64,000 nt of DNA from a virus. This document shows positions 12,209 to 57,003 of the stretch, piece after piece (the stretch's first letter is position 1; every line of letters begins with the position of its first letter). The notes below the pieces were generated by a model. That model saw only the letters and a program-made list of their open reading frames with translations. It was not told the origin of the DNA and ran no database searches. The translations under genes and the position numbers were made by a program. Where the stretch lies: IMG/VR virus record IMGVR_UViG_3300031521_000011, positions 104,245 through 168,244 of that record. One strand, 5' to 3'.

Positions 12209-13987
12209 ATGGCAGATGTTTCGTTGAGAATTACCGATGTCATTGAGATGATGGCAGGTTATATGAGAAGTAGGGTCAGGGCTGAGTATCCCGATATTGA
12301 TGTATCGGATGGCAGTCCATTCGACGATATCTTCATAGCTCCTATGAAAGAAATCTTTTCCCCATTTGTGACTATCGTTAATGAGATTGAAATTCGTAAC
12401 GATACTCCGAATGCTGCCGCATTGCCAAAGGCGATGCTTGATGAGCTTGGACAAGGAAGTTACTTTATGGTGCGCAGGGCCGGATCAAAGGCCACCGGTG
12501 AGGTAATATTTTCTTTCAAATCCATATCAGACACTCTCAACCTGATAATCCCAAAGGGGGTTATGCTCAGCACGAATGATGGATACTCCTATCAGGTATT
12601 TACTAGATTAGAGCTCTCACCGTTAGAGCTGTATGCGATGTATAACACCACAACCTTTATGTATGATATTCCCGTGCCAGTCGAAGCTCTCGATTTTGGC
12701 GAAGAATACAACGTAAATGCATACAGAGTTACCACCGTCGACACTGTATTTAGCACAAGTCTTGCTTATGTTAAAAACATATCTCCAATGACCGGAGGAG
12801 CTTCAGAGGAATCCAATGAAGAATATTGGGATAGAATCAAATCCTTTTATATCTCCAGGCAACTTGGTACGATCCCGGGGTATAAACAGTTCATTTTTGA
12901 AAACTTCCCAGAGATTGATGAGATATATGTATCCGGCCTCGGTGATAAGTATATGACCAGAGACACTATTGAATATACAGATGATGGCGTAAATAAGACC
13001 GTGACTGCTGGCGGTAAAATTGATATATATTTAAGGGGTGGTTCCTATAGCTCAGTAAAGAGTCAGGGCATAGCTAGAAACCTGAATCTACTGATTCAGG
13101 GAGCTATATATAGTACCATCGATATTACAGGAATTTCCGTATACAGGCTTGCTGATGGACCTGGACATCCAAAAGGGCGCACCGTAACTGAGTTCAGTCC
13201 GGGGACCGGACTTTCAACGCAGGCGCTTGTTGTTGTTGCAAGCACAGGCATATCTGTAGGAGATACTCTATGTGTTAGCTATTCCTATAGTCTTGATGGC
13301 GGCACTACCACGCTTACATCAACAGAAACATTTCCAATAAAGCTGTTAACGATACCGCTCTCTTGTCCTTTTGAGGATATTATATCGATTCGTAATCTGA
13401 CCCAGAATTACTACGTTGACATCTCCAACAATGCAAACTACAACATTACCACTATCAGTGATTTAGATTATGAGAATACTTCCAAGGAAGAAAAGACCAT
13501 CACGATAACTGATGCCGGCAGGCATAATGGGGATGTTATGGAGGTTGTCTATTCCTACAACCAGACAATAAACGTTCTAAATAACTTCTTCAACATAGAA
13601 GAGAATAGGATCGTAACAACAGACATTCTGCTCAAAGAAGCGCTTATTAAGTATATTAACATCTCCATGGTAATACACATGGGACCCGATTATACATATA
13701 CCTCTGACATTGCCACAAGCCTCAGAAACTCAGCAGAGCAATATTTTGGACAATTGACCATGGGGCAATCTGTACAAGAGCCTGACTTGATCAACGCACT
13801 ATATACCAATGAAAATGTTGGCGGAGCGATCGCCTACATCAACTTCCCATTGCAGGCTATGTATGTGGCAGTAGATCCTGATGCAGAGATTAGCTATAGT
13901 GCCAGGGTAGGCACATCACCAATAATCATTACGACTGAAGAAAGACAGTACGCACTGCTGAATAAAGTCGAAATTGAGGTTGTGTAA
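12209..13987 (+). CDS. Baseplate J-like protein
   Basis: 592 residues, ATG after TGAGGTGATAGATC. The N-terminus (YMRSRVRAEYPDIDVSDGSP, then IVNEIEIRNDTPNAAALPKA) and the central block GGASEESNEEYWDRIKSF with QLGTIPGYKQFIFENFPEI are typical of the baseplate J / gp6-type wedge family. This protein forms the ring that triggers sheath contraction, so the phage is contractile-tailed. Followed with a 1-base gap by the next baseplate gene. Confidence 0.88.
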   Translation: MADVSLRITDVIEMMAGYMRSRVRAEYPDIDVSDGSPFDDIFIAPMKEIFSPFVTIVNEIEIRNDTPNAAALPKAMLDELGQGSYFMVRRAGSKATGEVIFSFKSISDTLNLIIPKGVMLSTNDGYSYQVFTRLELSPLELYAMYNTTTFMYDIPVPVEALDFGEEYNVNAYRVTTVDTVFSTSLAYVKNISPMTGGASEESNEEYWDRIKSFYISRQLGTIPGYKQFIFENFPEIDEIYVSGLGDKYMTRDTIEYTDDGVNKTVTAGGKIDIYLRGGSYSSVKSQGIARNLNLLIQGAIYSTIDITGISVYRLADGPGHPKGRTVTEFSPGTGLSTQALVVVASTGISVGDTLCVSYSYSLDGGTTTLTSTETFPIKLLTIPLSCPFEDIISIRNLTQNYYVDISNNANYNITTISDLDYENTSKEEKTITITDAGRHNGDVMEVVYSYNQTINVLNNFFNIEENRIVTTDILLKEALIKYINISMVIHMGPDYTYTSDIATSLRNSAEQYFGQLTMGQSVQEPDLINALYTNENVGGAIAYINFPLQAMYVAVDPDAEISYSARVGTSPIIITTEERQYALLNKVEIEVV

Positions 13988-17531: not shown

Positions 17532-20480
<2,949 letters not shown>

Positions 20481-21117: not shown

Positions 21118-22233
21118 ATGGAGAAACCAACAATTCATGTTATAGGGATGCCGCATATTCAAACCTCAAAAGCATATTGCAGAGATGCTTATGGAATGAA
21201 GATACTTCATTTTTGCCAAATGATGCATAAAGAAGGATACAAAATCATGCTTTATGCCAGTGAGGATAATGAGACGCCTGCCGAATTATTCACATGCATC
21301 ACTAAAGCTCAGCAAGCCAAGCTGGGTTTTGAAGGCCCTGAAGACTATCTGAACATACAGTTCGATGTCACCAAGCCTATCTGGCAGATATTTCAGTCCA
21401 GAGTGACTTATTTTCTGAATAAAAATGTAAGTCCCGGAGACATCATTGGTACATTCTCTGGGCTTTGCGACAAATCCATTGCTGACGCCTTTCCGCAATG
21501 CTATTTTGTAGAACTCGGGATCGGGTATTCTGGCGTATTTTCTGGCTTCCGCATCTTTGAATCTTATGCCTGGATGCATACGATTTACGGAGCATCCACC
21601 GGAAACGCATCTGCAACAGACGGCAAATTCTACGATACTGTGATCCCGAATTATTTTAATCCCGATGATTTTCCATTTAAAAGCGAAAAGGAAGATTATT
21701 TCCTATTCGTCGGGAGAATGATCTATCGGAAAGGAATTGTCATCATCAACGACATGGCTAAGCGTATGCCAAATACTAAATTTATCTTTGCAGGACAAGG
21801 CGCCGTTCAGTATAAAAACAAAATAGGTTGTAGCGATGGAACTGTTCTTGAGGGGGATAACCTGGAGTATATCGGAACTATCAATATAGAGCAGCGTGGT
21901 AAGCTGATGAGCGGAGCAAAAGCTCTCATTGTGCCTACTATTTACATCGGACCTTTTGAGGGCGTTCATGCAGAGGCTATGTTTTGCGGAACGCCCGTAA
22001 TAACCACGAACTTTGGTTGCTTTACAGAGACGAATATCGATGGTGTTACTGGATACCGATGCTCTACGATCAAACAATTCGTTGAAGCTGCAAGCAAGGT
22101 ATCATCCCTCGATCCTATGAAGATACGGGCTCATGCCCTGTCAAAATTTTCTATGGATAGTGTTGCTCCTCAATATACGAAATATTTTGAGCAAATTCAG
22201 GGTTTAGCTAACGGCGGATTCTATGAAATGTAG
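21118..22233 (+). CDS. Family 4-type (GT-B) glycosyltransferase
   Basis: 371 residues. The C-terminal half has the GT1/GT4 nucleotide-sugar site: DYFLFVGRMIYRKG near 198-211, KFIFAGQG, LEYIGTINIEQRGKLMSGAK, and GPFEGVHAEAMFCGTPVITT with the E-x7-E-like retaining motif near 280-295. The N-terminal half is a plausible acceptor domain. Co-located with the fibres, methyltransferase and cysteine-rich protein, it may glycosylate a virion protein or alter host wall sugars. Confidence 0.85.
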   Translation: MEKPTIHVIGMPHIQTSKAYCRDAYGMKILHFCQMMHKEGYKIMLYASEDNETPAELFTCITKAQQAKLGFEGPEDYLNIQFDVTKPIWQIFQSRVTYFLNKNVSPGDIIGTFSGLCDKSIADAFPQCYFVELGIGYSGVFSGFRIFESYAWMHTIYGASTGNASATDGKFYDTVIPNYFNPDDFPFKSEKEDYFLFVGRMIYRKGIVIINDMAKRMPNTKFIFAGQGAVQYKNKIGCSDGTVLEGDNLEYIGTINIEQRGKLMSGAKALIVPTIYIGPFEGVHAEAMFCGTPVITTNFGCFTETNIDGVTGYRCSTIKQFVEAASKVSSLDPMKIRAHALSKFSMDSVAPQYTKYFEQIQGLANGGFYEM

Positions 22234-22289: not shown

Positions 22290-23864
22290 ATGGCTTTCGT
22301 AACGGCTGGCGTTAAAATCTACGCCACCAACTATAATAGAGTAAAGGGCAGAATAGCAGCTGAGTTAGCTCGGCGTGGATTGACATCCACATTGAGAAGC
22401 AATGTTACCGCTGGAATAAAGATGCTGGCAACTGATATGTCTAGCCTTCAAACCAATATTAATAAGATTGCCACGCACTATTCTTCGCTTATGGCGGCTG
22501 GTACTAAAATCAGAGCTTCTGACTATAATAACCTGGATGACCAAGTGCAGGCGCATGTCAACTTTGATATTTATTCGCTGGTCGCCACGGATTGCGCCTC
22601 AAGCTGTACCGGTGGATGCTATACCGCCTGCTCAGCAAGCTGTAAAAATACGTGTACCGGTAACTGCTCAACGTCCTGTAGCGGAGCGTGTGGTGTTGTC
22701 TGCACCGCTTCATGTGGTGGCTGTGGCGCAGGCTGTTGGAGTACCTGCGCGGCGGGATGCGCTGGCTGTAGCGGCACCTGCAATGGATGCACTGGACAAT
22801 GCTCATCAACATGCAAAACGGCATGCGCCGGCTGTGGAACGAGTTGCGTGACGGCATGCAGCACCGGATGCAATGGATGCACCGGGCACTGTAATGGATG
22901 CACTGGTCAATGTTCCGCCAAATGCGCTACTGTATGCGCAAGCTGCTCTGGACAGTGTAGCAGCGCATGCGCCGGTGGATGTCATGGATGCTCAGGACAG
23001 TGCGATACAGACTGCACAGGGGCCTGTACCGGGCGTTGTCTTACCGTATGCGGTGTATGTGCCTCTAGCTGCTCAAGCGCTTGTAAGGGCTGCAGTGGGT
23101 GTTCTACGTCATGCGGATCTAACTGCTCGACGAACTGTGGTACAGATTGTGCTGGTGGATGCAATACCAACTGCACTGGCTCATGTACTTCGACCTGTTC
23201 TATAGCGTGCTATAGTGTTTGCGGGGGCTGCTCTAACGGATGCGCCAGCTGTACTGGAGGATGTCAGGGTGCCTGTAAGGGATGCGATACGACGTGTAGC
23301 ACAGGATGCAGTGGGGCCTGTAAGGGGTCATGCAACAACGGCTGCACTGGTTGTGATACAGTATGTACAGGCGGCTGTAAGGGATGCAGTGCATGTGGAA
23401 ATGGAAGCTGCTCTCAATCATGCGGAATCGCGTGTTCGTCCTGCAAGGGTGCATGCACTGGTTGCTCAACCGGATGTTCTACAAGTTGTAATGCCGCATG
23501 CACTACTGGTTGCGGAAGTACCTGTGATAATAACTGCGCCAGTGATTGTGAAGGTGGATGCACCGGTACCTGTAATGGCTGTTCTACCACATGCACCGGC
23601 GGATGTTCAACCGCCTGTACGGCTTGTGGTGGAAATTGCGATAATAACTGCGCCAGTAATTGCGAGGGTGGATGCACCGGTGGATGCACGGCATGCAATA
23701 CTACATGCAGCAGTGGGTGTAAGGCAACCTGTAAAGATGCATGCGGCGGATGTGCGGCCGCATGCCTGGGTGGCTGCACTGGATGCGCCGCATTATGTAC
23801 AGGTGGCTGCACTGGATGCAGCTCCAACTGTATGGGTTCATGCAAAACGGGTGCTACTACCTGA
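22290..23864 (+). CDS. Giant cysteine-repeat (CXXX/CXX) protein, candidate radical SAM substrate
   Basis: 524 residues from ATG 22290 (GGGGTG 6 bases upstream; a GTG at 22281 overlaps that site). Residues 1-95 resemble phage tail proteins, with repeats of the form AGxKIxAxDYNxL (AGVKIYATNYN, AGTKIRASDYN). From about residue 97 to the end I count 111 cysteines, separated by three residues or two (once four); spacers are almost only Gly, Ser, Thr, Ala and Asn. No signal peptide or membrane span. CXXX-repeat peptides are known substrates of some radical SAM maturases, and one is encoded next door. Likely a crosslinked or metal/disulfide-rich virion appendage; this is inference. Confidence 0.8.
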   Translation: MAFVTAGVKIYATNYNRVKGRIAAELARRGLTSTLRSNVTAGIKMLATDMSSLQTNINKIATHYSSLMAAGTKIRASDYNNLDDQVQAHVNFDIYSLVATDCASSCTGGCYTACSASCKNTCTGNCSTSCSGACGVVCTASCGGCGAGCWSTCAAGCAGCSGTCNGCTGQCSSTCKTACAGCGTSCVTACSTGCNGCTGHCNGCTGQCSAKCATVCASCSGQCSSACAGGCHGCSGQCDTDCTGACTGRCLTVCGVCASSCSSACKGCSGCSTSCGSNCSTNCGTDCAGGCNTNCTGSCTSTCSIACYSVCGGCSNGCASCTGGCQGACKGCDTTCSTGCSGACKGSCNNGCTGCDTVCTGGCKGCSACGNGSCSQSCGIACSSCKGACTGCSTGCSTSCNAACTTGCGSTCDNNCASDCEGGCTGTCNGCSTTCTGGCSTACTACGGNCDNNCASNCEGGCTGGCTACNTTCSSGCKATCKDACGGCAAACLGGCTGCAALCTGGCTGCSSNCMGSCKTGATT

Positions 23865-23887
23865 TCTGAATGGTCCGAACACACTAC

Positions 23888-23926
23888 AATATCTGCCCGA
23901 ATCAGTTCGAGCAGATATTTTTTTCT
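23888..23926 (+). terminator. Rho-independent terminator after the cysteine-repeat gene
   Basis: A hairpin pairing AATATCTGC with GCAGATATT, with an inner CGAA/TTCG stem, is followed by a run of Ts. It lies 24 bases after the stop codon and just ahead of a promoter, so it separates the cysteine-repeat gene from the radical SAM gene. Confidence 0.85.
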
Positions 23927-23954
23927 TGTCAACCTATCTGTCCTGAGGTATAAT
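23926..23954 (+). promoter_or_regulatory. Consensus sigma-A promoter for the radical SAM gene
   Basis: TTGTCA (23926-23931), a 17-base spacer and TATAAT (23949-23954), 31 bases before the ATG at 23986. It is one of the best host-type promoters in the window and the only one seen inside the late region. Confidence 0.75.
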
Positions 23955-23985
23955 ACGACCAGAATCAAAAAATAGCGAGGTAACT

Positions 23986-26328
23986 ATGTTAAGGAAGCAA
24001 GGATATCGCTCACAGTATCAGGACCTTTTCGTTCGCATGTATCCAGAACTGTGCGAAACTGGACATCAAATACTTGCAACTAAAACAATTACATTCGTGC
24101 TTACAGAGGCTTGTCCTCTGAGGTGTTCGTACTGTGTTACAGCGGGAACAATGCTTCTTGATGGAAATTTTCAGGAAGTGCCTATTGAGAAAGTTAAAAT
24201 TGGAGATACAATCATGGGATTCGATGAAAATAATCCAATGAATAGAAAGCAGAGAAAAGTATTTCCATCTAAAGTTACAGCAATATTTGAAAGGGATGCT
24301 GAAGTTATTCGCATTTCCTTTGATAATGGGGAAAGCTTAGAAATCACAGAAGAGCATCCGCTACTTACAGATAGAGGCTGGAAACTTGCTGGTAAAGTAT
24401 CCTGTGCAAATCTCGTAAAAAGCTTAACACCCAATATAAAAAATACCATACCAGTAGACATTGATAGTCTTTCATACAAGACTGGGTATGTAGTTGCCTC
24501 TTGGAAGGGCGATGGTAGTGTCAAAAGATATACACGGACAGTTGGAAATACAGAAGGTCTTGATATGTTCAAAATTCGCCTTGCGGTGAAAGATGATGAA
24601 ATAATAGACCGCACGGAAAGATTTAGCAGAAATATAGGTATTGAATTTTATAGAAAACTATATCTAGTCTCTAAAAAATATAATATGAAAAAAGAAGCTT
24701 TGTTTGCTAATACTCGAAAAGTCTATAATCAGCTAAATAATTTGTTCACAGAAAATATTGGTAGAAATGAATCTGTGGAGTATGCAAGTGGATTTTTAGC
24801 TGGAATTTATGATACAGAGGGTAGTATAAGCCCTAAGGGAATTATACGCATCTCACAACTAGAGGGTGAAGTACTGAACGAGATACAACGTTGCCTGTCT
24901 ATTCTGAAAATACCATTCGTAAACGAGGTATTTTCAGGTAGGGGTGCACACAATATTCGTATTATCGAACCCTCTTGTGAGCATACTCGAACACTCAATG
25001 CGCTACGCTTTATTAGGCAAGTACGTCCTTCTGTTGCGCGAAAAGGTGTAAGCGTTTTCTATAATAGATCCTTACTTCTTGAGACTCGCATAGTCAAAAT
25101 AGAAAAGGTAGGTAATAGAAAAGTATACAATGTTGAAACCGACTCCCATACCTACATTGCAAACTATATGGCAGTTCATAATTGCTATCAGTGCAATAAA
25201 GATCACTCAGCCATCATGAGTAAGGAAGTGGCTGATAAAGCCATCGATACAATCCTATCCAATGAGGCTATGCATGGATATATGGACTCAAATCAATCCC
25301 CATCCGTCATCCTTGACTTTATTGGCGGTGAGCCTCTGCTGGAGGCAGAGCTCATGGATTATATCGTCCAACAGTTCAGGAAGAAAGCCTACCTTCTCAA
25401 TCATCCATGGGCCAAGTACCATATGATAAGCATCTCATCCAACGGAATCCCGATTATATCGAATCCGAAGGCTGTAGAGTTTATTAAGAAATACAAAAAT
25501 AAATTGAGTCTCACCATCACAATCGATGGCAACAAGGAGCTCCATGATGCCTGCCGGGTGTATCCTTCAGGGGCTGGCTCCTATGACGACGTTCGCAAGG
25601 CCATAGACATTGCTCGGCAGTATGTCACAATGACAAACACCAAGGTGACTCTGGCACCTGAAAACGTACAGTACCTGACTGAGTCAGTCACCCACCTGTT
25701 TGATCTTGGGTTCACAGATGTGCACGCAAATTGCGTATTTGAAAACGTTTGGAAGATTGAAAATGCCCAGGAGCTATATCGACAGATGATAAAGCTTGCA
25801 GACATTATGATTGATGGAAAACTCTATGAAAAGTATGAGTGTTCCTTGTTCGATGACTTTATTGGTCACCCCATGCTCGATAGCGATACACAAAATTGGT
25901 GCGGAGGCTCAGGTCAAATGTTGGCTATTGGCACAGATGGCCGATTATTCCCATGTATTCGCTTTATGAAGTATAGCTATAGTAATCAAATTCGTGAAGA
26001 ATACGAGGTTGGCGACGTTGATCGTGGCATCGACAGGAAAGAAGATAATAAGTATCTGCAGATTCTTGGAACAATCACGCGCCAGGCTCAATCTACAGAT
26101 GAGTGCTTGACCTGCCCGGTAGCCAGCGGATGCTCCTGGTGCACAGGTTACAACTACGATTACTTCGGCACGCCGAATCACCGGGCTACATTCATCTGCT
26201 GGCCGCATAAGGCGAGGGTGTTGGCCAACCATTACTACTGGTCAAAGCTGGCTGAAGCTGGTATCATAGATACCGTTCCTGTTCTTCATTTAACTGATGA
26301 AGATATTAAGATAGTCAGGGGCGAATGA
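23986..26328 (+). CDS. Radical SAM/SPASM peptide maturase interrupted by an intein
   Basis: 780 residues as translated; 430 after removal of a 350-residue intein (residues 50-399). The spliced extein reads CPLRCSY joined to CYQC, giving the canonical CxxxCxxC cluster motif followed by a radical SAM barrel (FIGGEPLL is the GGEP SAM motif). The C-terminus is SPASM-like: CGGSGQMLAIGTDGRLFPC near 639-657, then CLTCPVASGCSWC near 707-720 and a final Cys near 737. SPASM enzymes commonly modify ribosomal peptides, including thioether formation at cysteines. Flanked by two CXXX-repeat proteins, which are the obvious substrate candidates. Confidence 0.88.
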   Translation: MLRKQGYRSQYQDLFVRMYPELCETGHQILATKTITFVLTEACPLRCSYCVTAGTMLLDGNFQEVPIEKVKIGDTIMGFDENNPMNRKQRKVFPSKVTAIFERDAEVIRISFDNGESLEITEEHPLLTDRGWKLAGKVSCANLVKSLTPNIKNTIPVDIDSLSYKTGYVVASWKGDGSVKRYTRTVGNTEGLDMFKIRLAVKDDEIIDRTERFSRNIGIEFYRKLYLVSKKYNMKKEALFANTRKVYNQLNNLFTENIGRNESVEYASGFLAGIYDTEGSISPKGIIRISQLEGEVLNEIQRCLSILKIPFVNEVFSGRGAHNIRIIEPSCEHTRTLNALRFIRQVRPSVARKGVSVFYNRSLLLETRIVKIEKVGNRKVYNVETDSHTYIANYMAVHNCYQCNKDHSAIMSKEVADKAIDTILSNEAMHGYMDSNQSPSVILDFIGGEPLLEAELMDYIVQQFRKKAYLLNHPWAKYHMISISSNGIPIISNPKAVEFIKKYKNKLSLTITIDGNKELHDACRVYPSGAGSYDDVRKAIDIARQYVTMTNTKVTLAPENVQYLTESVTHLFDLGFTDVHANCVFENVWKIENAQELYRQMIKLADIMIDGKLYEKYECSLFDDFIGHPMLDSDTQNWCGGSGQMLAIGTDGRLFPCIRFMKYSYSNQIREEYEVGDVDRGIDRKEDNKYLQILGTITRQAQSTDECLTCPVASGCSWCTGYNYDYFGTPNHRATFICWPHKARVLANHYYWSKLAEAGIIDTVPVLHLTDEDIKIVRGE
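24133..25182 (+). mobile_element. Intein with LAGLIDADG homing endonuclease domain
   Basis: In-frame insertion of 350 codons. It begins with Cys (CVTAGTMLLDGNFQEV, splicing block A, then KIGDTIMG) and ends with HTYIANYMAVHN followed by Cys+1, the classical C-terminal block with His-Asn and a cysteine nucleophile. Two LAGLIDADG-like helices are visible: GYVVASWKGDGS near intein residue 120 and ASGFLAGIYDTEGS near 216. Codon and base use is more AT-rich than the extein, a sign of separate origin. It inserts exactly before the third cysteine of the radical SAM motif. Confidence 0.92.
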
Positions 26329-27152
26329 GAATGAAATATAAACCGTTTTTTGGCGTTACAGAAAAGATTGATGACGATATTGCGGATATAAAGAAGGAAT
26401 CTGCAAAGATTCGTGAACCCGAAATTGGATGTTCAGTAGGCTGCTTTGGCTGTGGAACTACATGTATTGGAGCATGCTTTGCTGCATGCGTCGGTGCATG
26501 CATAGGTAACTGCGCTGGTAGCTCCATGGGGAATATGAAGCCCCCTGTCGTATGTAATCAGCCAAAATGCATGAGCTGCAGCAGCGAAGAGGTATTAATG
26601 TCATTTCCTGTTACGGAGGATTTGAGCTTATATCTTGAAAAACTCCTTACCGAGAGGATATCGCTGCAAGAGATTATTATATCGGTAGGGAATGACCCAA
26701 CCATCGAGAATGACGAAAAATTTCAAGAACTTATGCAGCAATATAAAGATGCATTCGTGGCGTGGGACTACTGCTACATAATGCTGGCAAAGGAATATGT
26801 TCCTGCAGAATATATGGGCGGTATTTCATTTTCATTCAACGAAAAAACATTCGTATATAAAGGAGAGGTAAAAAACATGAGCAATGCAAAAGTACTCACA
26901 GAAGCCATCGAGTCAGAGGAAAAGGATACCCTTCAGAACAGCTGGTACGACAGAGAGGCACTCCATGAGCTGATCAAGGAAGGCTCCACATCCATCGAAG
27001 TAATGAGGGAATTCAAGGAAGCCAACCGTATCTATCAAAAGACATGGAACGATCTGCTGAAGAAGTATTTCCCCAGCGTGGATACATCAACCAACGGCAC
27101 GGCATCGTGGACTTGCGACTTCGAGGCCAACACGGTCACGGTCACCATGTAG
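26325..27152 (+). CDS. CXXX-repeat-containing protein, possible second substrate or partner of the maturase
   Basis: 275 residues; ATG overlaps the maturase stop codon (ATGA), indicating translational coupling. Residues ~36-65 carry eight cysteines in CXXX/CXX spacing (GCSVGCFGCGTTCIGAC and on). Residues ~90-180 and ~205-275 appear to be two copies of one small domain: compare AWDYCYIMLAKEYVP...SFSFNEKTF with TWNDLLKKYFP...SWTCDFEANTV. A strong internal ribosome site precedes Met185. A leader or partner role for the maturase is inferred from coupling and the shared cysteine motif. Confidence 0.75.
   Translation: MRMKYKPFFGVTEKIDDDIADIKKESAKIREPEIGCSVGCFGCGTTCIGACFAACVGACIGNCAGSSMGNMKPPVVCNQPKCMSCSSEEVLMSFPVTEDLSLYLEKLLTERISLQEIIISVGNDPTIENDEKFQELMQQYKDAFVAWDYCYIMLAKEYVPAEYMGGISFSFNEKTFVYKGEVKNMSNAKVLTEAIESEEKDTLQNSWYDREALHELIKEGSTSIEVMREFKEANRIYQKTWNDLLKKYFPSVDTSTNGTASWTCDFEANTVTVTM
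26877..27152 (+). CDS. Possible internal-start product (91 residues) of the CXXX gene
   Basis: AGGAGAGG at 26861-26868 lies 8 bases before an in-frame ATG, better than the site of the full-length gene. Translation from here would give only the second of the two repeated small domains, without the cysteine segment. It may be a separately made subunit, or the trace of a fusion between two genes. Confidence 0.5.
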   Translation: MSNAKVLTEAIESEEKDTLQNSWYDREALHELIKEGSTSIEVMREFKEANRIYQKTWNDLLKKYFPSVDTSTNGTASWTCDFEANTVTVTM

Positions 27153-27165: not shown

Positions 27166-27597
27166 ATGAAAATATCTCTAAAGAATCTCCAGAGCCTATA
27201 TCTAGCTCATCAGAATCTTCTCAGTTTCGAGTTGAGTGGCCGGTTTGGATATATGGCTGCCATAAATCTACAGGTTCTGGAACCGGCCTGGGAGGAATAT
27301 GTCAAGCGCAGACAAATCCTCGAAATGTCCTACGCTCATAAAGAAGATGGGCAAATTATGCGCGACTTAACCGGCGGTATCATCTTTGATGATGAAGAAA
27401 AATACCAATCAGAACTGGATAAACTCCAGCGCACAATCTCTAATGTCCCCCTATATGTATTCGAGAGAGAAGATGTTGTAGAACATGGAAGAATACTGGG
27501 GGCCATCATGTACAACCTTCTACCCGTCATGCCGGATCTGGCGTGGCCAATTGTGCCCGTAATGGCAGAAAGCGAGGATGCATCATGTCAGCAGTAA
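27166..27597 (+). CDS. Conserved-type phage protein, unknown function
   Basis: 143 residues, ATG after AGGGAGG. Helical, charged, two long amphipathic stretches; no cysteine cluster. The length and position between a tail-region gene and the endolysin recall DUF1617-like phage proteins, but I cannot confirm that. It overlaps the endolysin start by 13 bases. Confidence 0.65.
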   Translation: MKISLKNLQSLYLAHQNLLSFELSGRFGYMAAINLQVLEPAWEEYVKRRQILEMSYAHKEDGQIMRDLTGGIIFDDEEKYQSELDKLQRTISNVPLYVFEREDVVEHGRILGAIMYNLLPVMPDLAWPIVPVMAESEDASCQQ

Positions 27598-28484
27598 TTG
27601 GGAGAAAGCCAAAGGTAGCTCTGACCAGGGGGCATGACCCCAGCACGCCCGGGAAGCGCTCGTTCGATGGAAAGCTCAGGGAGTGGGCCTTCAACGATGA
27701 CATGGCCGCGCGCCTTAATAAGCATCTGCTGTTCAATGGGATCGACGTCCTATTGACGATCCCTACCGGAGGAGCGGATGCGCTGCCGGACATCAACACC
27801 CACAATGGATATCTTAACCGCAAGGCGCGTATCGCCAAGATCAACGCCTGGAAGCCGGATCTGGAGATCGAGTTCCACGCCAATGCCTGTGGTACCAACT
27901 GGAATAGCGGCCGTGGGCAAATCCTCTATATCGCAGCGTCAAAGAGGGGAACGGACTCCGAAAAATTCATCAATGTGCTTCGCAAATACATGCGCTCTGT
28001 GGCCGGCACTGGCTCTATCACGCCGGATCGTGGATTCGGCTATAAGAACTTTGATATCGTGAATGGCGTCAAAGCTCCATGCTGCCTGATCGAGCATGCT
28101 TTCATGACGAATCACGAAGACGTTGCATTGCTATTGAGTGATGTGCAGCGCGATAAATGGGCCGAGGCAGAGGCCCGGGCCGTCTGCGAGTGGTTCGCTA
28201 TTCCGTTTAAAAACTACAAAAATGTTGTTACGCCGCCAAAGCCGCCAAAGCCACCGGTTCCGAAAATGCCCACCCTCAAGCGCGGCATGGTGAATAATGA
28301 TGATGTTCGTAAGCTGCAGAATGCCATCAATAAGTTCATCGCAGACAAAAAGAATTGGCTTGATGTGGATGGAGACTTCGGAGAACTGACAGAACAGGCC
28401 CTTATAGCTGTCCAGAAGGCATTACTGCCCTCTTCCCCCTTGGGAGTTGCCGATCAAGCAACCTGGGACAAGCTACTGGCATAA
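27585..28484 (+). CDS. Endolysin: N-acetylmuramoyl-L-alanine amidase with C-terminal wall-binding domain
   Basis: 299 residues from ATG 27585 (GCGAGGA 6-7 bases upstream). Amidase_3 pattern: GHDPSTPGKRS with first zinc His, a Glu in REWAFND, EFHANAC with second His, and LIEHAFMTNHED with catalytic Glu. A Pro/Lys-rich linker near 212-225 leads to a PG_binding_1-like domain (NDDVRKLQNAINKF, DGDFGELTEQALIAVQ). It cleaves the bond between MurNAc and L-Ala to release progeny. No signal peptide, so it needs the nearby holin-like proteins. Confidence 0.9.
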   Translation: MSAVIGRKPKVALTRGHDPSTPGKRSFDGKLREWAFNDDMAARLNKHLLFNGIDVLLTIPTGGADALPDINTHNGYLNRKARIAKINAWKPDLEIEFHANACGTNWNSGRGQILYIAASKRGTDSEKFINVLRKYMRSVAGTGSITPDRGFGYKNFDIVNGVKAPCCLIEHAFMTNHEDVALLLSDVQRDKWAEAEARAVCEWFAIPFKNYKNVVTPPKPPKPPVPKMPTLKRGMVNNDDVRKLQNAINKFIADKKNWLDVDGDFGELTEQALIAVQKALLPSSPLGVADQATWDKLLA

Positions 28485-47755: not shown

Positions 47756-48023
47756 AATTACCTACCTCCTCACGATATTTTTTCTCAAATTCAATGAGAG
47801 TCTTAATTTGGGCATCTATGTGTTTGCGAGCAGCGTCTGAATAGCGGTAAGAATATCCAATTATACATCCGCCAATAGCAATTTGAGTGTCACCATAAAG
47901 GAACTCATATGAATAGCAGTTATTCGGACACACTTGCTGTTCTTCGCATACACCGAAATTCTCAGTATACACCGAGACCTTCATGTCGGCACCACATATC
48001 GGGCATGGGTGACCATCATTCAT
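47673..48023 (-). CDS. Zinc-ribbon protein
   Basis: 116 residues, ATG after AAGGAGGATTCTAAAAA. HPCPICGAD and CEEQQVCPNNC give a probable zinc site; a helical basic segment follows and the tail is Pro-rich. The last 27 codons overlap the SbcC N-half in another frame. Confidence 0.65.
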   Translation of the reverse strand: MNDGHPCPICGADMKVSVYTENFGVCEEQQVCPNNCYSYEFLYGDTQIAIGGCIIGYSYRYSDAARKHIDAQIKTLIEFEKKYREEVGNYEEIPTQAPGQTGSDQFPKPRIDDGPF

Positions 48024-48751
48024 TTTTTAGAATCCTCCTTCACTTTGATAGCCCTGTGTACTATGTCGAAAATCGGCTCATCATTCATATTTCCGACAGA
48101 TTGTTCTTTCTGGCTTTCGTAGGAATAGTCACATCCGAACATCACATCTCCGATAGCGCTGATATATAACACATCAACATTAACTTCCTGATCAGTGAAG
48201 GTGTTCATGGAATACTGGTCTTGCGCCATAGAATCACCGAGTCCCCACTCGATTGCATTGCCTTCCTCGATGAGGTGCTCTCCCTCTATATTGACTTTAT
48301 CGTACGGCCTATAAAACACCAGCGCTTTATATTTTGATTGCGCAACCATGTCGCACTGCTCATGAAATGGATCCTCAGAAACAGCAAGACCACAGTAAGC
48401 GTCTTCAAGTGTTCTAATCATCACCATATGCCCATAGAGACTAATGAGAGAATCTACCATTTCTTCACTGTACACTTTGGCATTTGTGACGATGTAAAAT
48501 CCATCCACATCAATTTTTCTATAAATGATGCGATCCACAAAATACTTGATAACATTGGATGCAAGGCTAGGTTCTCCGCCAGTAAATGCGATGCTGGAAA
48601 ATGTAACCTGGTCCAGTATACTGTCGATCATTTCAAATCCCATATCGCGAGGCTCTGCTGGACCACGCAGGCAATGCCGACATTCCATATTGCAGCGCCG
48701 GGTCACTTCCACAACCAGGTTGCTACAGAGTGTTCTGCGATCCCTAGTCAT
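48020..48751 (-). CDS. Second radical SAM protein
   Basis: 243 residues. RRCNMECRHCLRG (near 18-30) is the CxxxCxxC cluster motif and FTGGEPSLAS near 55 the GGEP SAM site. The C-terminal part (SAIGDVMFGCDYS) looks like a reduced SPASM-type segment with a single cysteine. Length is short for the family. Lies among small zinc proteins; substrate unknown. It could act on a peptide or on a nucleotide. Confidence 0.8.
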   Translation of the reverse strand: MTRDRRTLCSNLVVEVTRRCNMECRHCLRGPAEPRDMGFEMIDSILDQVTFSSIAFTGGEPSLASNVIKYFVDRIIYRKIDVDGFYIVTNAKVYSEEMVDSLISLYGHMVMIRTLEDAYCGLAVSEDPFHEQCDMVAQSKYKALVFYRPYDKVNIEGEHLIEEGNAIEWGLGDSMAQDQYSMNTFTDQEVNVDVLYISAIGDVMFGCDYSYESQKEQSVGNMNDEPIFDIVHRAIKVKEDSKK

Positions 48752-52057: not shown

Positions 52058-52133
52058 TGGTGCGGGTGGTGGGACTCGAACCCACGGATAGCCGCTTTTG
52101 AGGCGGCCGCGTCTGCCGTTGCGCCACACCCGC
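52058..52133 (-). tRNA. tRNA-Leu (CAA), short variable arm
   Basis: 76 bases with CCA encoded. Acceptor GCGGGTG/CACCCGC, anticodon stem GCCGC/GCGGC, loop CTCAAAA (anticodon CAA), T-arm GTGGG-TTCGAGT-CCCAC. The variable region is only TATCC, although leucine tRNAs normally carry a long variable arm. Confidence 0.85.
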
Positions 52134-52134
52134 A

Positions 52135-52221
52135 TGGTAGGGGATGCGGGATTTGAACCCGCACGACCTCTCAGTCAGTGGATTTTAAGTCCCCTGCGTC
52201 TGCCAATTTCGCCAATCCCCC
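52135..52221 (-). tRNA. tRNA-Leu (UAA)
   Basis: 87 bases with CCA. Loop CTTAAAA gives anticodon UAA, and a long variable arm is present as expected for leucine. One base from the previous tRNA. Confidence 0.9.
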
Positions 52222-52225
52222 TTAT

Positions 52226-52669
52226 CTACTTCAAATACCTTTGCTTGCACTTCAGTTTAGGATATTGTTCAAATAAATCCCAAATGGGAATCCTATTTGA
52301 TAGCAATGCTTTATCAATCTCACTCTTTGTGCAAACCGCGATCTCAATTGTACTACCTGTTGGCACATCATGTCCGGAGGATATGAACTTAATACCTTCT
52401 TCGCTGACGTATAATCGAGTACTGCCCAAATGATGACCGTCCATAACTCGGTTAGCCATGTCATTAATGCAGCCGCAAACCAGATACCCAGTATCTCCGG
52501 TATAATCACAGTTTAAGGCCCGCATAATATACCTGGTGCCCTTCTTTTTATCTGCTCGATATATCATCTGTTCAAGCACTGGGGTAATTGGATTTTCCCA
52601 AGCCCTCTTTCCTTGAGACCATTCAGCGAAATTAATTTCAGAATCAAATTCGGCAATCAATTTTTCCAT
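52226..52669 (-). CDS. Unknown protein
   Basis: 147 residues from ATG 52669 (AAAGGAGAATGAT). An acidic N-terminus, then CDYTGDTGYLVCGC with three cysteines near 55-70, and a C-terminal part with an EIAVCTKSEIDKALLSNRIP motif. No family recognised. Lies between tRNA genes. Confidence 0.6.
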   Translation of the reverse strand: MEKLIAEFDSEINFAEWSQGKRAWENPITPVLEQMIYRADKKKGTRYIMRALNCDYTGDTGYLVCGCINDMANRVMDGHHLGSTRLYVSEEGIKFISSGHDVPTGSTIEIAVCTKSEIDKALLSNRIPIWDLFEQYPKLKCKQRYLK

Positions 52670-52686
52670 ATCATTCTCCTTTATCC

Positions 52687-52863
52687 TCATAGCAGGTACC
52701 ACCACCATTCCTCTTCAAACCACTTATTCACAAGTTCCTTGTCAGCCTTATCTTGCTTCACCAATTCTTTTAGAAATGCGATACCTTCCTCTTCACTTAC
52801 CTCTACACCGAAGAGCGTCCAGGGTCGTGGATTCTCGACTATTTTAGGATTGTCATTTTCCAT
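52687..52863 (-). CDS. Small acidic protein
   Basis: 58 residues, ATG after TTAGGAGGCAATGA. Glu/Lys-rich with a Trp cluster at the end (FEEEWWWYLL). Function unknown. Confidence 0.65.
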   Translation of the reverse strand: MENDNPKIVENPRPWTLFGVEVSEEEGIAFLKELVKQDKADKELVNKWFEEEWWWYLL

Positions 52864-52891
52864 TCATTGCCTCCTAAAAACAAACAATTAT

Positions 52892-52969
52892 AGGACCCGG
52901 AGGAATTCGGACCCTCGACTTCCTGCCCCGTACGTTAGGCTGGCACTCTATCCACTGAGCTACGGGCCC
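52892..52969 (-). tRNA. tRNA-like gene, anticodon not determinable
   Basis: 78 bases. Acceptor GGGCCCG/CGGGTCC and T-arm GAGGG/TCCTC pair, and a D-arm is present, but the segment between D- and T-arms is 28 bases rather than 23 and forms no proper 5-bp anticodon stem. No CCA encoded. Confidence 0.55.
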
Positions 52970-52982
52970 GAGGGGAGCCCGA

Positions 52983-53948
52983 TTACTCGGGCGCCTTTGT
53001 GTTTGAATTTGATAATTTAACCAACGCCTGAAGATTGTCTGTATGACAAAGTATTCTTGACTTATCCTCATGGCTAAGATTTTTTCTGGTAAGTGCATCC
53101 GAACATAGGCAGGCGATGGCGAACAGGATTGATTGCCTGGTATCCTCATCCTCAACAATTGGTATGATCTTGCTTTGCTTCTGGATAGTGGGTGCCATAT
53201 TCGCTTTGAGAACATTTATGGTGTTCATGATATCGGGTACCGATTCAAGCATGAGCTCCTTGTAGAATCCCTCATAGTCATAGGTGATCTTATCCAGCGG
53301 CTTAGATTCGATATCCTCCACATACTTGGTAAGCAGTTCGTAGCTCATCCTGTATGCATGGAAGCTGTGAGCAGTGTGAGTATAGCTACCAACTGGATAT
53401 CCCATCTCTTCCGCCACCCGGCGCTGCAGGGCAATGAATCCGACTGCATTCATGTAGGTGGCCCTGACGGCATCGTTGCTTCTCATCATTACCTGCATAT
53501 TCAGCCTTCCATCCCTATAAAGGAATTGGATGCTCTGCAGGCAGGCCGGATCTTTGTTTATGGAGTCAACTGCAAAATCCCTGATGCCCATTACCGCGCG
53601 CCGGGTATCCGCATTGCGCCTGAGTTCACTGTAAAGCCATGGGAGCTGTTTTTCAAAGCGGTTATGATAGGTATACTCCCAGCAGAGGCCGTCGCCAATC
53701 TTGAAATCCAGCACGCCATCCACAATTTCCATTGTGTACTGCTGCAGCTCCCGGTGACCTCCCGGGAACAGCCTGCTGATGAATGGCTCTGCCGTGGCAT
53801 TCTCCACAAACATTGTCATTCCGATTTCCTTGATATCCGTATTATAGTCGGGACACGGATAAATTGGACCCTCCCTCTCCAGTACCACGAGCGCTTTGTG
53901 GTATGCCTCAGGTAGATTTGGCGCTTCGACGAAGTGATGTCTGTACAT
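52983..53948 (-). CDS. Thymidylate synthase family protein
   Basis: 321 residues. RRNADTRRAVMGIRD, then DPACLQSIQF (catalytic Cys), RDGRLNMQVMMRSNDA, MNAVGFIALQRRV and SYTHTAHSFHAY follow the order of thymidylate synthase / dCMP hydroxymethylase motifs. Asn in YMNAVGF sits where thymidylate synthases have Asn and dCMP hydroxymethylases Asp, hinting at a dUMP-type substrate. Could supply dTMP or a hydroxymethylated uracil for modified phage DNA. C-terminal ~70 residues are extra. Confidence 0.75.
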   Translation of the reverse strand: MYRHHFVEAPNLPEAYHKALVVLEREGPIYPCPDYNTDIKEIGMTMFVENATAEPFISRLFPGGHRELQQYTMEIVDGVLDFKIGDGLCWEYTYHNRFEKQLPWLYSELRRNADTRRAVMGIRDFAVDSINKDPACLQSIQFLYRDGRLNMQVMMRSNDAVRATYMNAVGFIALQRRVAEEMGYPVGSYTHTAHSFHAYRMSYELLTKYVEDIESKPLDKITYDYEGFYKELMLESVPDIMNTINVLKANMAPTIQKQSKIIPIVEDEDTRQSILFAIACLCSDALTRKNLSHEDKSRILCHTDNLQALVKLSNSNTKAPE

Positions 53949-53969
53949 TAGATCGCTCCTTTCTTATTT

Positions 53970-54120
53970 TAAATAGGGTATACGGTAGTCTGGCTCTCAA
54001 CGGGGTTCGGACCCGTACTCAACGACAATGCGTCAGTCCTTCCAATTGGGCTATGAGATAAATTGAGTCTCTGTTCTTGATGCAGAAACCACAATCCCAG
54101 ACTACCGTATACCCTATTTA
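53970..54120. repeat. Perfect 24-bp inverted repeat enclosing a tRNA-like sequence
   Basis: Arms 53970-53993 and 54097-54120 are exact reverse complements (key bases TAGGGTATACGGTAGTCTGG). The 103-base centre holds a tRNA-like sequence. The arms are outside the tRNA fold itself. Confidence 0.9.
53994..54060 (-). tRNA. tRNA-like sequence inside the 24-bp inverted repeat
   Basis: T-arm ACGGG-TCCGAAC-CCCGT pairs perfectly, and a partial acceptor (TCTCA/TGAGA) and D-arm are present. Only 19 bases separate D- and T-arms; GAC-GCATT-GTC forms a 3-4 bp mini-stem with a 5-base loop. No standard anticodon loop. Confidence 0.45.
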
Positions 54121-54128
54121 TTTTTAAA

Positions 54129-54217
54129 TGGCGGAAGTAGTAGGACTCGAACCCACAGGCCCTTTCGGGCTCACCGGTTTTCAAGACCGGCTCCTTAACC
54201 AATTCGGACATACTTCC
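54129..54217 (-). tRNA. tRNA-Ser (UGA)
   Basis: 89 bases with CCA; acceptor GGAAGTA/TACTTCC, loop CTTGAAA gives anticodon UGA, long variable arm (GAGCCCGAAAGGGCCT) as expected for serine. Confidence 0.92.
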
Positions 54218-54228
54218 AAAAAGCAAAA

Positions 54229-54316
54229 TGGTGCGCCGGGAAGGATTTGAACCTCCGTACCCCGAAGGGAGCAGGTTTACAGCCTGCCGCCATTGACCAG
54301 ACTCGGCCACCGACGC
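54229..54316 (-). tRNA. tRNA-Tyr (GUA)
   Basis: 88 bases with CCA; acceptor GCGTCGG/CCGGCGC, anticodon stem GCAGG/CCTGC, loop CTGTAAA, long variable arm typical of bacterial Tyr. Confidence 0.92.
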
Positions 54317-54319
54317 ATA

Positions 54320-54405
54320 TGGTGCGAGAGATGGGACTTGAACCCACACGGCCTTTCGGTCACCAGCCCCTCAAACTGGCGCGGCTGCCATTACGCCACC
54401 CTCGC
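54320..54405 (-). tRNA. tRNA-Leu (GAG)
   Basis: 86 bases with CCA; stem CCAGT/GCTGG, loop TTGAGGG gives GAG, long variable arm. Confidence 0.9.
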
Positions 54406-54409
54406 AAAC

Positions 54410-54486
54410 TGGCGGCTCCAGGGAGACTCGAACTCCCGACCTCTGCCGTGACAGGGCAGCGCGATAACCAACTTCGCTATGGAGTC
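54410..54486 (-). tRNA. tRNA-Asp (GUC)
   Basis: 77 bases with CCA; acceptor GACTCCA/TGGAGCC, stem CTGCC/GGCAG, loop CTGTCAC. Confidence 0.92.
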
Positions 54487-54489
54487 AAA

Positions 54490-54729
54490 TTACTGATTGG
54501 GTTTTCGTGACCACTTAAAGATACCTTCAAAGTTTAAATAGATGAAGAAGAGGATTCCAACGCCCTGTGCCCAGTTCCGGGTTGCGACGTCAAAAGCTAT
54601 TGTACATGCATTTGCGATTAAAAACAAGTAGAAGCCCTTTGAATTTTTTCTGTTGATGAAAATTGAACCTGCGATGCTGAAAATGGTGGAAACCCATAGT
54701 GCTACCTGGAGAATGTCTTGTGTTGTCAT
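54490..54729 (-). CDS. Small multi-span membrane protein, PnuC-like topology
   Basis: 79 residues from ATG 54729, which overlaps the upstream stop by four bases; AGGATGG lies 5-7 bases before it. About three hydrophobic segments (LQVALWVSTIFSIAGSIFI, GFYLFLIANACTIAFDV, GVGILFFIYLNFEGIF). Phages often carry such short membrane proteins resembling part of the nicotinamide riboside transporter PnuC, but I cannot assign transport here. Confidence 0.65.
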   Translation of the reverse strand: MTTQDILQVALWVSTIFSIAGSIFINRKNSKGFYLFLIANACTIAFDVATRNWAQGVGILFFIYLNFEGIFKWSRKPNQ

Positions 54730-54881
54730 TTCTTCCATCCTACCCCACTTTTTCTATTCTTTTTTCTTTTTATATTGACAATAATACAGGCTCCAAGAAG
54801 AGCAGCAATTAGCGCAACAATAACACCAATATCAATGATGACCAAGAATAAGAGTTGATCCACAATTTTAACCAAATGCAT
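54726..54881 (-). CDS. Small single-span membrane protein G
   Basis: 51 residues, ATG after ATAGGAGGTAAAAAG. One N-terminal helix (LLFLVIIDIGVIVALIAALLGACIIV) followed by a strongly basic tail (IKRKKNRKSG). Translationally coupled to the next gene. Confidence 0.7.
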   Translation of the reverse strand: MHLVKIVDQLLFLVIIDIGVIVALIAALLGACIIVNIKRKKNRKSGVGWKK

Positions 54882-54911
54882 CTTTTTACCTCCTATTTGA
54901 TTTTAGAATGC

Positions 54912-55003
54912 ACCCAGCTGCCGGGCTCGAACCGACATACTCCCGTATCCACGATGATCAGTCATGAGTCGTTGGAGTTCTAGGCCAATTGATTTAAACT
55001 GGG
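54912..55003 (-). tRNA. tRNA-like gene with expanded arms
   Basis: Acceptor CCCAGTT/AGCTGGG and T-arm GTCGG-TTCGAGC-CCGGC pair well. The D region is about 28 bases and a stem CATGA/TCGTG with loop CTGATCA (would read GAU) is followed by a 13-base variable region. Ends TGCA rather than CCA. Confidence 0.45.
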
Positions 55004-55009
55004 ATAAAT

Positions 55010-55085
55010 TGGAGCTCCGGATAGGAATCGAACCTACAACCTCCTGATTACAAATCAGGCGCTCTGCCAGTTGAGCTACCGGAGC
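55010..55085 (-). tRNA. tRNA-Thr (UGU)
   Basis: 76 bases with CCA; acceptor GCTCCGG/CCGGAGC, stem CCTGA/TCAGG, loop TTTGTAA. Confidence 0.92.
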
Positions 55086-55315
55086 ATGGTACCGGGTGTT
55101 GTCGCACATCCGGCAAATCGCCTTTTCTATATACGAGCCGGCCGGCTGCATACACAGAAGGGCTGCATCACCATACTTACTGCATTAGCCGGCCGGCCTA
55201 CAGGTTTTCTGGATCGCGGTTGCCCTGTTGGTGCCACCCGAGTAGACGCCGAGCCACTCTTTCCGATGGTATTTTCTTACCACCACCCCTACGCTTGGGC
55301 TAGGATGACATGTAA
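55086..55315. other. tRNA-cluster spacer with two GC palindromes
   Basis: 230 bases without a supported gene. GCCGGCCGGC occurs at 55137-55146 and 55188-55197, each self-complementary and able to pair with the other across a 41-base loop. Nothing else recognised. Confidence 0.6.
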
Positions 55316-55392
55316 TGGTGCTACCTGATGGGATCGAACCAACGACCTCTCGCGTATCAGGCGAGCGCTCTAACCAGCTGAGCTACAGTAGC
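55316..55392 (-). tRNA. tRNA-Ile (GAU)
   Basis: 77 bases with CCA; acceptor GCTACTG/AGGTAGC, stem CTCGC/GCGAG, loop CTGATAC. Confidence 0.9.
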
Positions 55393-55474
55393 ATATTTGG
55401 CGAGGCATGCTTGGGGAGAAAGCACACCCCGCCGGCGCTTGGGAAAGAGGAGAATACTGCCTCACAGAGGAGGC

Positions 55475-55552
55475 TGGTGGATCTTCTCCGATTCGGACGG
55501 AGGACCTATCGGTTATGAGCCGACTGCTCTGACCAGGCTGAGCTAAAGATCC
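55475..55552 (-). tRNA. tRNA-Met or Ile2 (CAU)
   Basis: 78 bases with CCA; acceptor GGATCTT/AAGATCC, stem GTCGG/CCGAT, loop CTCATAA. T-loop starts TCC instead of TTC. Whether elongator Met or lysidine-modified Ile cannot be told. Confidence 0.85.
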
Positions 55553-55891
55553 ATGTTGTAAATGCATTGTGGCTCGAATCGTGCTCTTATTGTACACTGT
55601 TCGAGGAATGTATTCAAGATAGAAATAGAGTCTGTCAATAACATTGCAAACTTTTCCTTCAAGGTGCTCTTCATCAATGGTCGTAGGTTAAAACCATCAA
55701 TTTACTTTTTCACCCTGCTCTATACCTCGCCATATGTACGAGATATAATGCGTTCGCAAGAGGCCATCGACAGAACTCTATAACCCGGTCTGTTCCCGGA
55801 GCCAGAGATATTTTGCAGCACGTTTCGGCAGTACAAGTACCGGTGCGCGGGAGTCTGCGTCCTTTTAGCAAACGCAGAGTCTCTACCCAAC
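55553..55891. other. Spacer between tRNA-Met and tRNA-Gly
   Basis: 339 bases with no supported gene. It holds a good minus-strand promoter (55589-55617) and an imperfect hairpin near 55851-55885 (GAGTCTGCGT/ACGCAGAGTC). No other signal seen. Confidence 0.6.
55589..55617 (-). promoter_or_regulatory. Promoter of the tRNA cluster
   Basis: TTGAAT, exactly 17 bases, TACAAT on the minus strand, 36 bases upstream of tRNA-Met. Reads into the leftward tRNA array. Confidence 0.7.
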
Positions 55892-55966
55892 TGGAGCGGG
55901 TGATGGGACTCGAACCCACACAACCAGCTTGGAGGGCTGGTCTTCTAGCCGTTGAATTACGCCCGC
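55892..55966 (-). tRNA. tRNA-Gly (UCC)
   Basis: 75 bases with CCA; stem CCAGC/GCTGG, loop CCTCCAA gives UCC; one C-A mismatch in the acceptor stem (GCGGGCG/CACCCGC). Confidence 0.88.
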
Positions 55967-55969
55967 GTG

Positions 55970-56662
55970 TTACTGTTTAATATACTCAAGATAGCTCTTC
56001 GAGTCAATACCCCTTGGCCCTTTTGTTCCACGGGTACCTACCGGGCAGCCGGGATATTTTGCATCGCACTCTCGGCAGACATCTTTCTCACCACGAGGAT
56101 AAGAATCACGCAGTGGTATCGTCCTTCCGCAGTCCGAGCATTCCACAACAAGCCCCATAGGTTCGTCGTCATCATCCAGGTCGCAATCCATTTCCTCCGC
56201 AGCCATCGTGTATGGGCAGACGTTACTGTTTTCGTTCATAGGCCTCTCGTCAACTATTTCCTTTAACCGCCTGAGTTCACATTTGTCCTGATCTCCCAGG
56301 CAGCCCAGGCAGCGCATGGCTGATGCCTCTAGCAATTCTTTCACCAAAGGCTTCGATATAACCATATTCTGTCCCTTGTTTTCGATATAGTTTACGCCTG
56401 GAACGAACATCTGAATTTCAACCTTTTGACTATCCTTCATCATTTGAGCGGCAAATCCCTTTTGATTCTCCTCCATGCGTTTCAGGATTGCCTCAAGAAC
56501 TATGGAAACATTCGCCTCTGCAGACACCAGGAGATCGTGTTCCGATTCAGGAACAATTCGATTTTTCCATTGCTGAATAATATCATGAGCTTGGCCCATA
56601 AAGCCGACCATGAATAGGAAATTATTACGATCTTGCCGATTTAAATAGGATTTCAATTTCAT
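55970..56662 (-). CDS. Unknown protein with zinc ribbons, DUF5651-like start
   Basis: 230 residues. The start (KSYLNRQDRNNFLFMVGFMGQAHDIIQQW) resembles a phage family annotated as DUF5651 in my memory; unverified. C-terminal part has RCLGCLGDQDKC near 118 and CSDCGRTIP...CRECDAKYPGC near 180-210, two probable zinc sites. Function unknown. Confidence 0.65.
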   Translation of the reverse strand: MKLKSYLNRQDRNNFLFMVGFMGQAHDIIQQWKNRIVPESEHDLLVSAEANVSIVLEAILKRMEENQKGFAAQMMKDSQKVEIQMFVPGVNYIENKGQNMVISKPLVKELLEASAMRCLGCLGDQDKCELRRLKEIVDERPMNENSNVCPYTMAAEEMDCDLDDDDEPMGLVVECSDCGRTIPLRDSYPRGEKDVCRECDAKYPGCPVGTRGTKGPRGIDSKSYLEYIKQ

Positions 56663-56687
56663 GTCAGAATCACTCCCCTTGTTGTTT

Positions 56688-56720
56688 AAAAATCCCCGGG
56701 CGCAGCAGACGCCCGGGGAT
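56688..56720 (-). terminator. Terminator after gene 56808
   Basis: ATCCCCGGGCG/CGCCCGGGGAT 11-bp stem followed by TTTTT on the minus strand. Confidence 0.88.
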
Positions 56721-56807
56721 ATGCATTACACACTTAGTTTTTAAAAAATCATAAGGTCCGGCATATTCGCACAGCAGCTCCCTTGCCGGGCCATAAATTG
56801 AGTGTAC

Positions 56808-56984: not shown

Positions 56985-57003
56985 CTCTGACGCCTCCTTT
57001 AAG

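Follow-up and report, generated by a model that had tools for sequence, protein, structure and literature searches.

Large cysteine-repeat (CXXX) proteins paired with radical SAM maturases in phage tail loci are candidate crosslinked tail appendages

The window analyzed here (64,000 nucleotides, bases 104245 to 168244 of a 168,244-base virus record) carries, among genes for the tail and for lysis, a cassette of three genes that we call ORF A, ORF B, and ORF C. The features on which the argument rests, all on the plus strand, are as follows.

12209 to 13987, plus strand: baseplate wedge subunit (phrog_6), in the tail locus
17532 to 20480, plus strand: collagen-like tail fiber with a Collar domain, in the tail locus
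21118 to 22233, plus strand: glycosyltransferase (phrog_3408), in the tail locus, directly upstream of ORF A
22290 to 23864, plus strand: ORF A, CXXX-repeat protein of 524 aa, candidate substrate and tail appendage
22290 to 22592, plus strand: N-terminal helical domain of ORF A, common to most phage CXXX proteins
22593 to 23843, plus strand: CXXX tract of ORF A, 111 Cys
23888 to 23919, plus strand: hairpin followed by a T run between ORF A and ORF B, putative intrinsic terminator
23926 to 23954, plus strand: promoter-like TTGTCA-17-TATAAT upstream of ORF B, 11/12 bases, a consensus match only
23986 to 26328, plus strand: ORF B, radical SAM/SPASM maturase (TIGR04115) with intein, 780 aa (430 aa when spliced)
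24133 to 25182, plus strand: intein with a LAGLIDADG domain, 350 aa, CVTAGT...VHN and then Cys
26325 to 27152, plus strand: ORF C, accessory protein or second substrate, 275 aa, translationally coupled to ORF B
26430 to 26513, plus strand: short CXXX segment of ORF C, 8 Cys, aa 36 to 63
26598 to 27149, plus strand: accessory-like part of ORF C, similar to small ORFs of two related loci (L301 and L118)
27543 to 28484, plus strand: N-acetylmuramoyl-L-alanine amidase (endolysin), in the tail/lysis locus

The baseplate wedge, the collagen-like/Collar fiber, and the amidase around the cassette agree with the placement in a phage tail locus that an earlier note on this DNA had proposed, and the same setting recurs in relatives. 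One or more methyltransferase-like genes also lie around the cassette, no protease gene adjoins the ORF A/ORF B pair, and elsewhere the record encodes a terminase, helicases, a ligase, and further tail-fiber families. The window also holds a second radical SAM gene (48020 to 48751, minus strand; PF04055 match) and an array of 14 predicted tRNA genes (52058 to 62520, minus strand), and the start of the record encodes a phage nicotinamide phosphoribosyltransferase and a ribose-phosphate pyrophosphokinase, which points to NAD salvage.

The ATG of ORF A at position 22290 is preceded by a Shine-Dalgarno sequence, GGGGTGAT. The first ~100 residues of the protein are free of cysteine, and all 111 cysteines fall within residues 102 to 518. 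The cysteine count given in the earlier note is thereby confirmed, whereas the tract is 417 rather than ~430 residues long and the spacing of “3 or 4” holds for 109 of the 110 gaps (84 gaps of 4 and 25 of 3, with a single gap of 5). When the tract was shuffled 10,000 times, the fraction of gaps of 3 or 4 averaged 0.25 and reached 0.42 at most, compared to 0.99 in the tract itself. The tract is not a simple DNA repeat: its 111 cysteines are embedded in 80 distinct C-xxx words, the longest exact repeat is 18 bp, and there is a single tandem pair, which is 114 bp long and diverged. In composition it is rich in Cys, Gly, Ser, and Thr. AlphaFold2 predicted three helices at the N terminus (pLDDT about 90 over residues 10 to 95) and no fold for the tract (pLDDT about 40), a result that is uninformative about any crosslinked state. 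ORF A had no significant match in Pfam, PHROGs, PDB, or BFVD, known tail proteins included, and a Foldseek search with the model gave no significant structural match; against TIGR04117, the model for CXXX targets, it scored 19.2 bits (E value, 9.8e-4), under the 50-bit cut-off. The best, weak structural match was BFVD entry A0A8S5VD55, a siphovirus “TNFR-Cys domain-containing” protein that is likely a misnamed CXXX protein. The N terminus, which had been described as resembling a tail protein, is instead a conserved helical domain of this family, and since it has no match in Pfam, NCBIfam, PDB, or BFVD, the identification of ORF A as a tail protein rests on gene context and on fusions in relatives.

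Between ORF A and ORF B, the hairpin at 23888 to 23919 (−16.7 kcal/mol over a 71-base stretch; z score, −3.56; none of 200 shuffles folded as well) is likely an intrinsic terminator, and the promoter-like element downstream of it was the best of 25 matches. Together these elements suggest that the substrate and enzyme genes may be transcribed separately.

ORF B substantiates the claim that a SPASM radical SAM enzyme lies beside the repeat protein. It scored 403.6 bits against NCBIfam model TIGR04115 (“radical SAM peptide maturase, CXXX-repeat target family”; curated cut-off, 350 bits) with the 350-aa intein still in place. The second-best model was that for the ranthipeptide maturase PapB, at 173.5 bits, which did not reach its cut-off of 340; a QhpD-type profile matched at 5.6e-23. 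Once the intein was removed in silico, ORF B was recognizable as a radical SAM/SPASM enzyme by its CX3CX2C motif, its GGEP motif, and its SPASM cysteines, and in the spliced protein C43, C47, C50, E99-P100, and C289...C388 were invariant across nine relatives. The solved structure nearest to the enzyme of locus L118, a close relative of ORF B, was 5WGG, a SCIFF-type, thioether-forming maturase.

The earlier note had assumed that the maturase is spliced, and the intein signatures support this. The intein lies just before the third Cys of CX3CX2C, an Fe-S cysteine, and has the splice residues Cys1, a terminal HN, and Cys+1. A LAGLIDADG_3 match was above its cut-off, and Intein_splicing scored 30.7 bits, under the cut-off of 35.8; the intein of locus L301 matched Intein_splicing above the cut-off. 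Seven other phage loci of this enzyme family carry inteins (L301, L297, L481, L308, L317, L482, and L483). The position before the third Cys is shared by the window, L301, L297, and L481, and L483 has one intein at the second Cys of CX3CX2C and another at a SPASM Cys. The intein sites resolved in TIGR04115-like phage enzymes are thus Fe-S cysteines.

The start of ORF C overlaps the stop of ORF B (ATGA). We recovered in it the second, shorter CXXX segment previously reported in the enzyme-coupled gene. Its residues 92 to 177 matched, at 33%, a separate small ORF in L301 (5305 to 5601), and residues 185 to 275 matched, at 40%, a small ORF of L118 (6468 to 6740) that lies directly downstream of the L118 enzyme. 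Residues 224 to 272 weakly resembled TIGR04116, the model for the partner protein in CXXX systems (17.1 bits; E value, 0.0045; under the 50-bit cut-off), and the L118 small ORF had no TIGR04116 match.

A search of viral contigs with the spliced ORF B sequence alone found no relative, but a search of IMG/VR with an alignment of seven enzymes returned 303 related stretches, of which the best 80 were kept. With the enzyme as bait, a CXXX ORF was present in 76 of the 79 loci examined among these best 80 of 303. Clustering of enzyme loci from the same set at 90% identity left 65 distinct viral TIGR04115-like loci, 62 of which had a CXXX ORF no more than 4 kb away (median gap, 330 bp); in the three without one (L270, L273, and L305) the enzyme lies near a contig end. 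The substrate was also used as bait. Plain CXXX DNA patterns returned mostly simple-repeat artifacts, and a pattern of mixed CXXX spacing with Gly positions performed better: of the 80 stretches it returned, 27 hold a genuine in-frame CXXX ORF. The enzyme lay in the same slice in 20 of these and elsewhere in the record in 4; the remaining 3 are fragments of 5.4 to 7.3 kb. Two further pattern-found loci (L042 and L058) likewise have the enzyme in their records. Among 43 control loci of more distant SPASM enzymes (L360 to L402), a CXXX ORF was found in one (L374). The earlier note had named homologues lacking the maturase as evidence against its proposal; this check did not refute it, as all of the CXXX-bearing viral records checked that exceed 8 kb encode the enzyme. 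As judged from gene content, the pairing of a CXXX protein with a TIGR04115-like enzyme is near obligate.

The homologous CXXX proteins share the spacing of ORF A (74% of gaps are 4 and 22% are 3; n = 3,355 gaps in 78 proteins), have Gly before the second Cys of CxxC in 69% of cases, and have Gly, Ser, Thr, or Asn at the other positions. A profile of the N-terminal domain matched 60 of 100 CXXX-bearing loci, a few of the matches being doubtful since the seed alignment held some Cys sequence. The nearest relative, L301 (57% identity between the enzymes), has the same intein site and a CXXX protein of 513 aa; that of L118 has 277 aa. On the viral contigs L297 and L308, a single intein-bearing enzyme is accompanied by at least five consecutive CXXX proteins, and one of the proteins in these arrays has 968 aa and 104 Cys.

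The pair also occurs in other phages, including cultured ones. Salmonella phage SPN3US encodes two CXXX proteins, one of 130 aa with 21 Cys and one of 134 aa with 20 Cys (locus L322, 13417 to 13818 and 13832 to 14221; in record NC_027402, complement of 143416 to 143817 and of 143831 to 144220), between gp167 and the radical SAM pair gp163/gp164. Their tracts contain few K/R. TIGR04115 was the best model for gp163, at 125.6 bits, under the cut-off. As deposited, gp166 was called in the wrong frame, and the second CXXX ORF is unannotated; the same region is also miscalled in Erwinia phage phiEaH2, and in Escherichia phage EC001 both ORFs are annotated in the right frame, as hypothetical proteins. 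In total, 33 phage records carry the region (SPN3US itself twice). Between SPN3US and phiEaH2, 41 of 41 aligned cysteines were conserved, compared to 139 of 218 other residues (64%), and this conservation, together with the same spacing in homologues, indicates selection on the cysteines. The SPN3US CXXX ORFs adjoin gp167/gp168, and gp168 to gp170 are virion baseplate/tail-fiber candidates by mass spectrometry (PMC5694885). Published studies of the SPN3US virion leave the CXXX proteins unmentioned in their main texts, although the gene as deposited is in the wrong frame.

Tail genes also surround the cassette in other relatives. Neighbors in 27 viral loci include tail fiber, tail collar, baseplate, Baseplate_J, Mu gp48, Tail_P2_I, and endolysin families; many other neighbors on the viral contigs have no assigned function, and some of these contigs could represent prophages or tail-like particles. 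The cassette of locus L488 consists of a CXXX protein, a radical SAM gene, an unknown gene, and another radical SAM gene. It is embedded in a P2-like tail operon, preceded by genes read from their sequences as spike, baseplate J, gpI, and collar fiber and followed by genes read as sheath and tube. Its CXXX protein is a 401-aa collagen-like fiber with a CXXX end. The 513-aa CXXX protein of L301 carries a CBM96 carbohydrate-binding module (E value, 2.6e-14), with a collagen-like gene upstream, and in L066 a weak F5/8-type-C domain precedes the tract. These fiber-like and sugar-binding fusions, together with the tail-locus position, argue for a tail appendage.

The history of the enzyme family was examined in a tree of 109 enzymes, in which a Bacteroidota clade stands apart from the phage groups and many deep forks are weakly supported. 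Firmicutes genome rows, which are probable prophages, were scattered among the phage groups. Enzymes over the TIGR04115 cut-off were found in 2 of 196 genomes of the class that includes Neglectibacter timonensis, a rarity in bacteria that fits a mobile gene. Termite-gut contigs of Candidatus Termititenax and other Margulisiibacteriota (L351 to L354) encode CXXX proteins of 495 to 667 aa, with up to 122 Cys and a phage-like N terminus, beside a distant enzyme.

We infer that the tract is the enzyme’s substrate, that its cysteines become joined to carbon, and that the product is a stiff part of the virion. Specifically, we think it rather likely that ORF A forms a tail appendage and that many cysteines of its tract are modified, probably through thioether crosslinks. 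The N-terminal helical domain would probably serve in docking or in enzyme recognition. Protein splicing would restore the Fe-S site of ORF B, and the spliced enzyme, aided by ORF C, would modify many tract cysteines in the host cytoplasm before tail assembly. Most likely, bonds would form between the sulfur of a cysteine and a carbon atom in a residue close by, giving thioether macrocycles, and a flexible tract could thereby become a stiff spike or fiber resistant to reduction and protease. Cys-Asp/Glu linkage of the PapB type was ruled out as the sole reaction, and cannot be the principal one, because the tract has 111 Cys and just 11 acidic residues (9 D and 2 E). Given the Gly, Ser, Thr, and Asn around the cysteines, acceptors of another kind, as in sactipeptides, are the likelier guess.

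The scarcity of acidic acceptors could also be read differently: the cysteines might stay in the fiber as thiols, disulfides, or metal ligands, with the enzyme making a different or minor change, such as epimerization or formylglycine formation. ORF B does match sulfatase maturases weakly. Yet the CxPxR/CxAxR sulfatase motif is absent from the tract, the enzyme is present wherever its presence could be checked, and its closest characterized relatives, by NCBIfam models and solved structures, are the thioether formers PapB and the SCIFF maturase; we therefore regard a thiol, disulfide, or metal-bound fiber as unlikely. It is also quite improbable that the cassette is phage-borne RiPP cargo (a “moron”) in which cleavage of the CXXX protein releases an antibacterial or signaling peptide, with its place near tail genes reflecting where such cargo gathers. 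The annotation of TIGR04115 to TIGR04117 as peptide maturation systems would fit such a role, as would the related Bacteroidota clade, in which the targets are short CXXX peptides that are exported and bear a twin-arginine-like leader. The phage substrates, in contrast, mostly have 130 to 524 aa (one has 968) and lack a leader of the Bacteroidota twin-arginine type, some tracts are fused to collagen-like fiber or CBM domains, and the cassette lies within tail operons rather than in separate cargo loci. Moreover, the most frequent neighbor families of the phage loci include neither a recurrent protease nor a recurrent exporter. Finally, although many hits of plain DNA pattern scans are indeed simple-repeat artifacts, the chance that the CXXX ORF is a functionless low-complexity or simple-repeat artifact is negligible, and chance or low complexity is refuted by the nonrepetitive tract DNA, the conserved N-terminal domain, the retention of 41/41 cysteines against 64% of other residues, and the co-occurrence with the enzyme.

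The phage CXXX cassette is therefore real, recurrent, and more general than the earlier note thought. That note knew of no described example; TIGR04115 is in fact already an NCBI family and the pair is present in many phages, while our literature search found no paper describing the CXXX/radical SAM pair in phages. As assigned by profile and gene context, the enzyme family is known and what is new is large tail-locus proteins as its targets. The likely substrates are large structural tail proteins, each offering as many as 111 cysteines for modification, and they are spread over dozens of unrelated phages. A wider proposal, which we put forward tentatively as a serious possibility, is that undescribed phage tail appendages of this kind are widespread, SPN3US included, and consist of CXXX tracts stitched into continuous carbon-sulfur rods through an acceptor other than Asp/Glu. 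If true, this would give virion assembly a covalent crosslinking route and would add both a new class of hard protein fiber and new enzyme chemistry with acceptors other than Asp/Glu. The presence of the system in SPN3US, for which amber genetics and virion proteomics exist, makes a direct test feasible.

Small peptides with Cys-rich sequences are already known to be matured by radical SAM enzymes, and the phage cassette resembles the NCBIfam CXXX-repeat RiPP system (TIGR04115/TIGR04116/TIGR04114/TIGR04117) in enzyme family, Cys spacing, and a coupled small partner. Our literature search found no published chemistry for the TIGR04115 CXXX-repeat family. Unlike the targets of that system, the phage targets are large, lie in tail loci, have their own N-terminal domain, and lack an exported leader; they also fall under the cut-offs of the target models, and the phage enzymes group apart from the Bacteroidota clade. 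SPN3US-type jumbo phages likewise have CXXX proteins beside radical SAM genes in a baseplate/tail-fiber locus but differ in having two radical SAM genes and a protein of roughly 295 aa, shorter CXXX proteins, and another N terminus. A precedent for thioethers made by a radical SAM enzyme within a full-size protein subunit is the QhpD-type maturation of quinohemoprotein amine dehydrogenase, where a few Cys-Asp/Glu bonds are formed in an enzyme subunit, compared to the 111-Cys repeat of the phage protein. By profile and solved structure, the closest SPASM maturases are those of the ranthipeptides PapA/PapB (freyrasin) and SCIFF/CteB. PapB forms six Cys-Asp/Glu thioethers on one chain at CX3D motifs and tolerates other spacings (PMC9413430). 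PapA shares with ORF A the repeated Cys-X3 motif; in contrast to CX3D, position 4 in ORF A is Cys again and acidic residues are rare.
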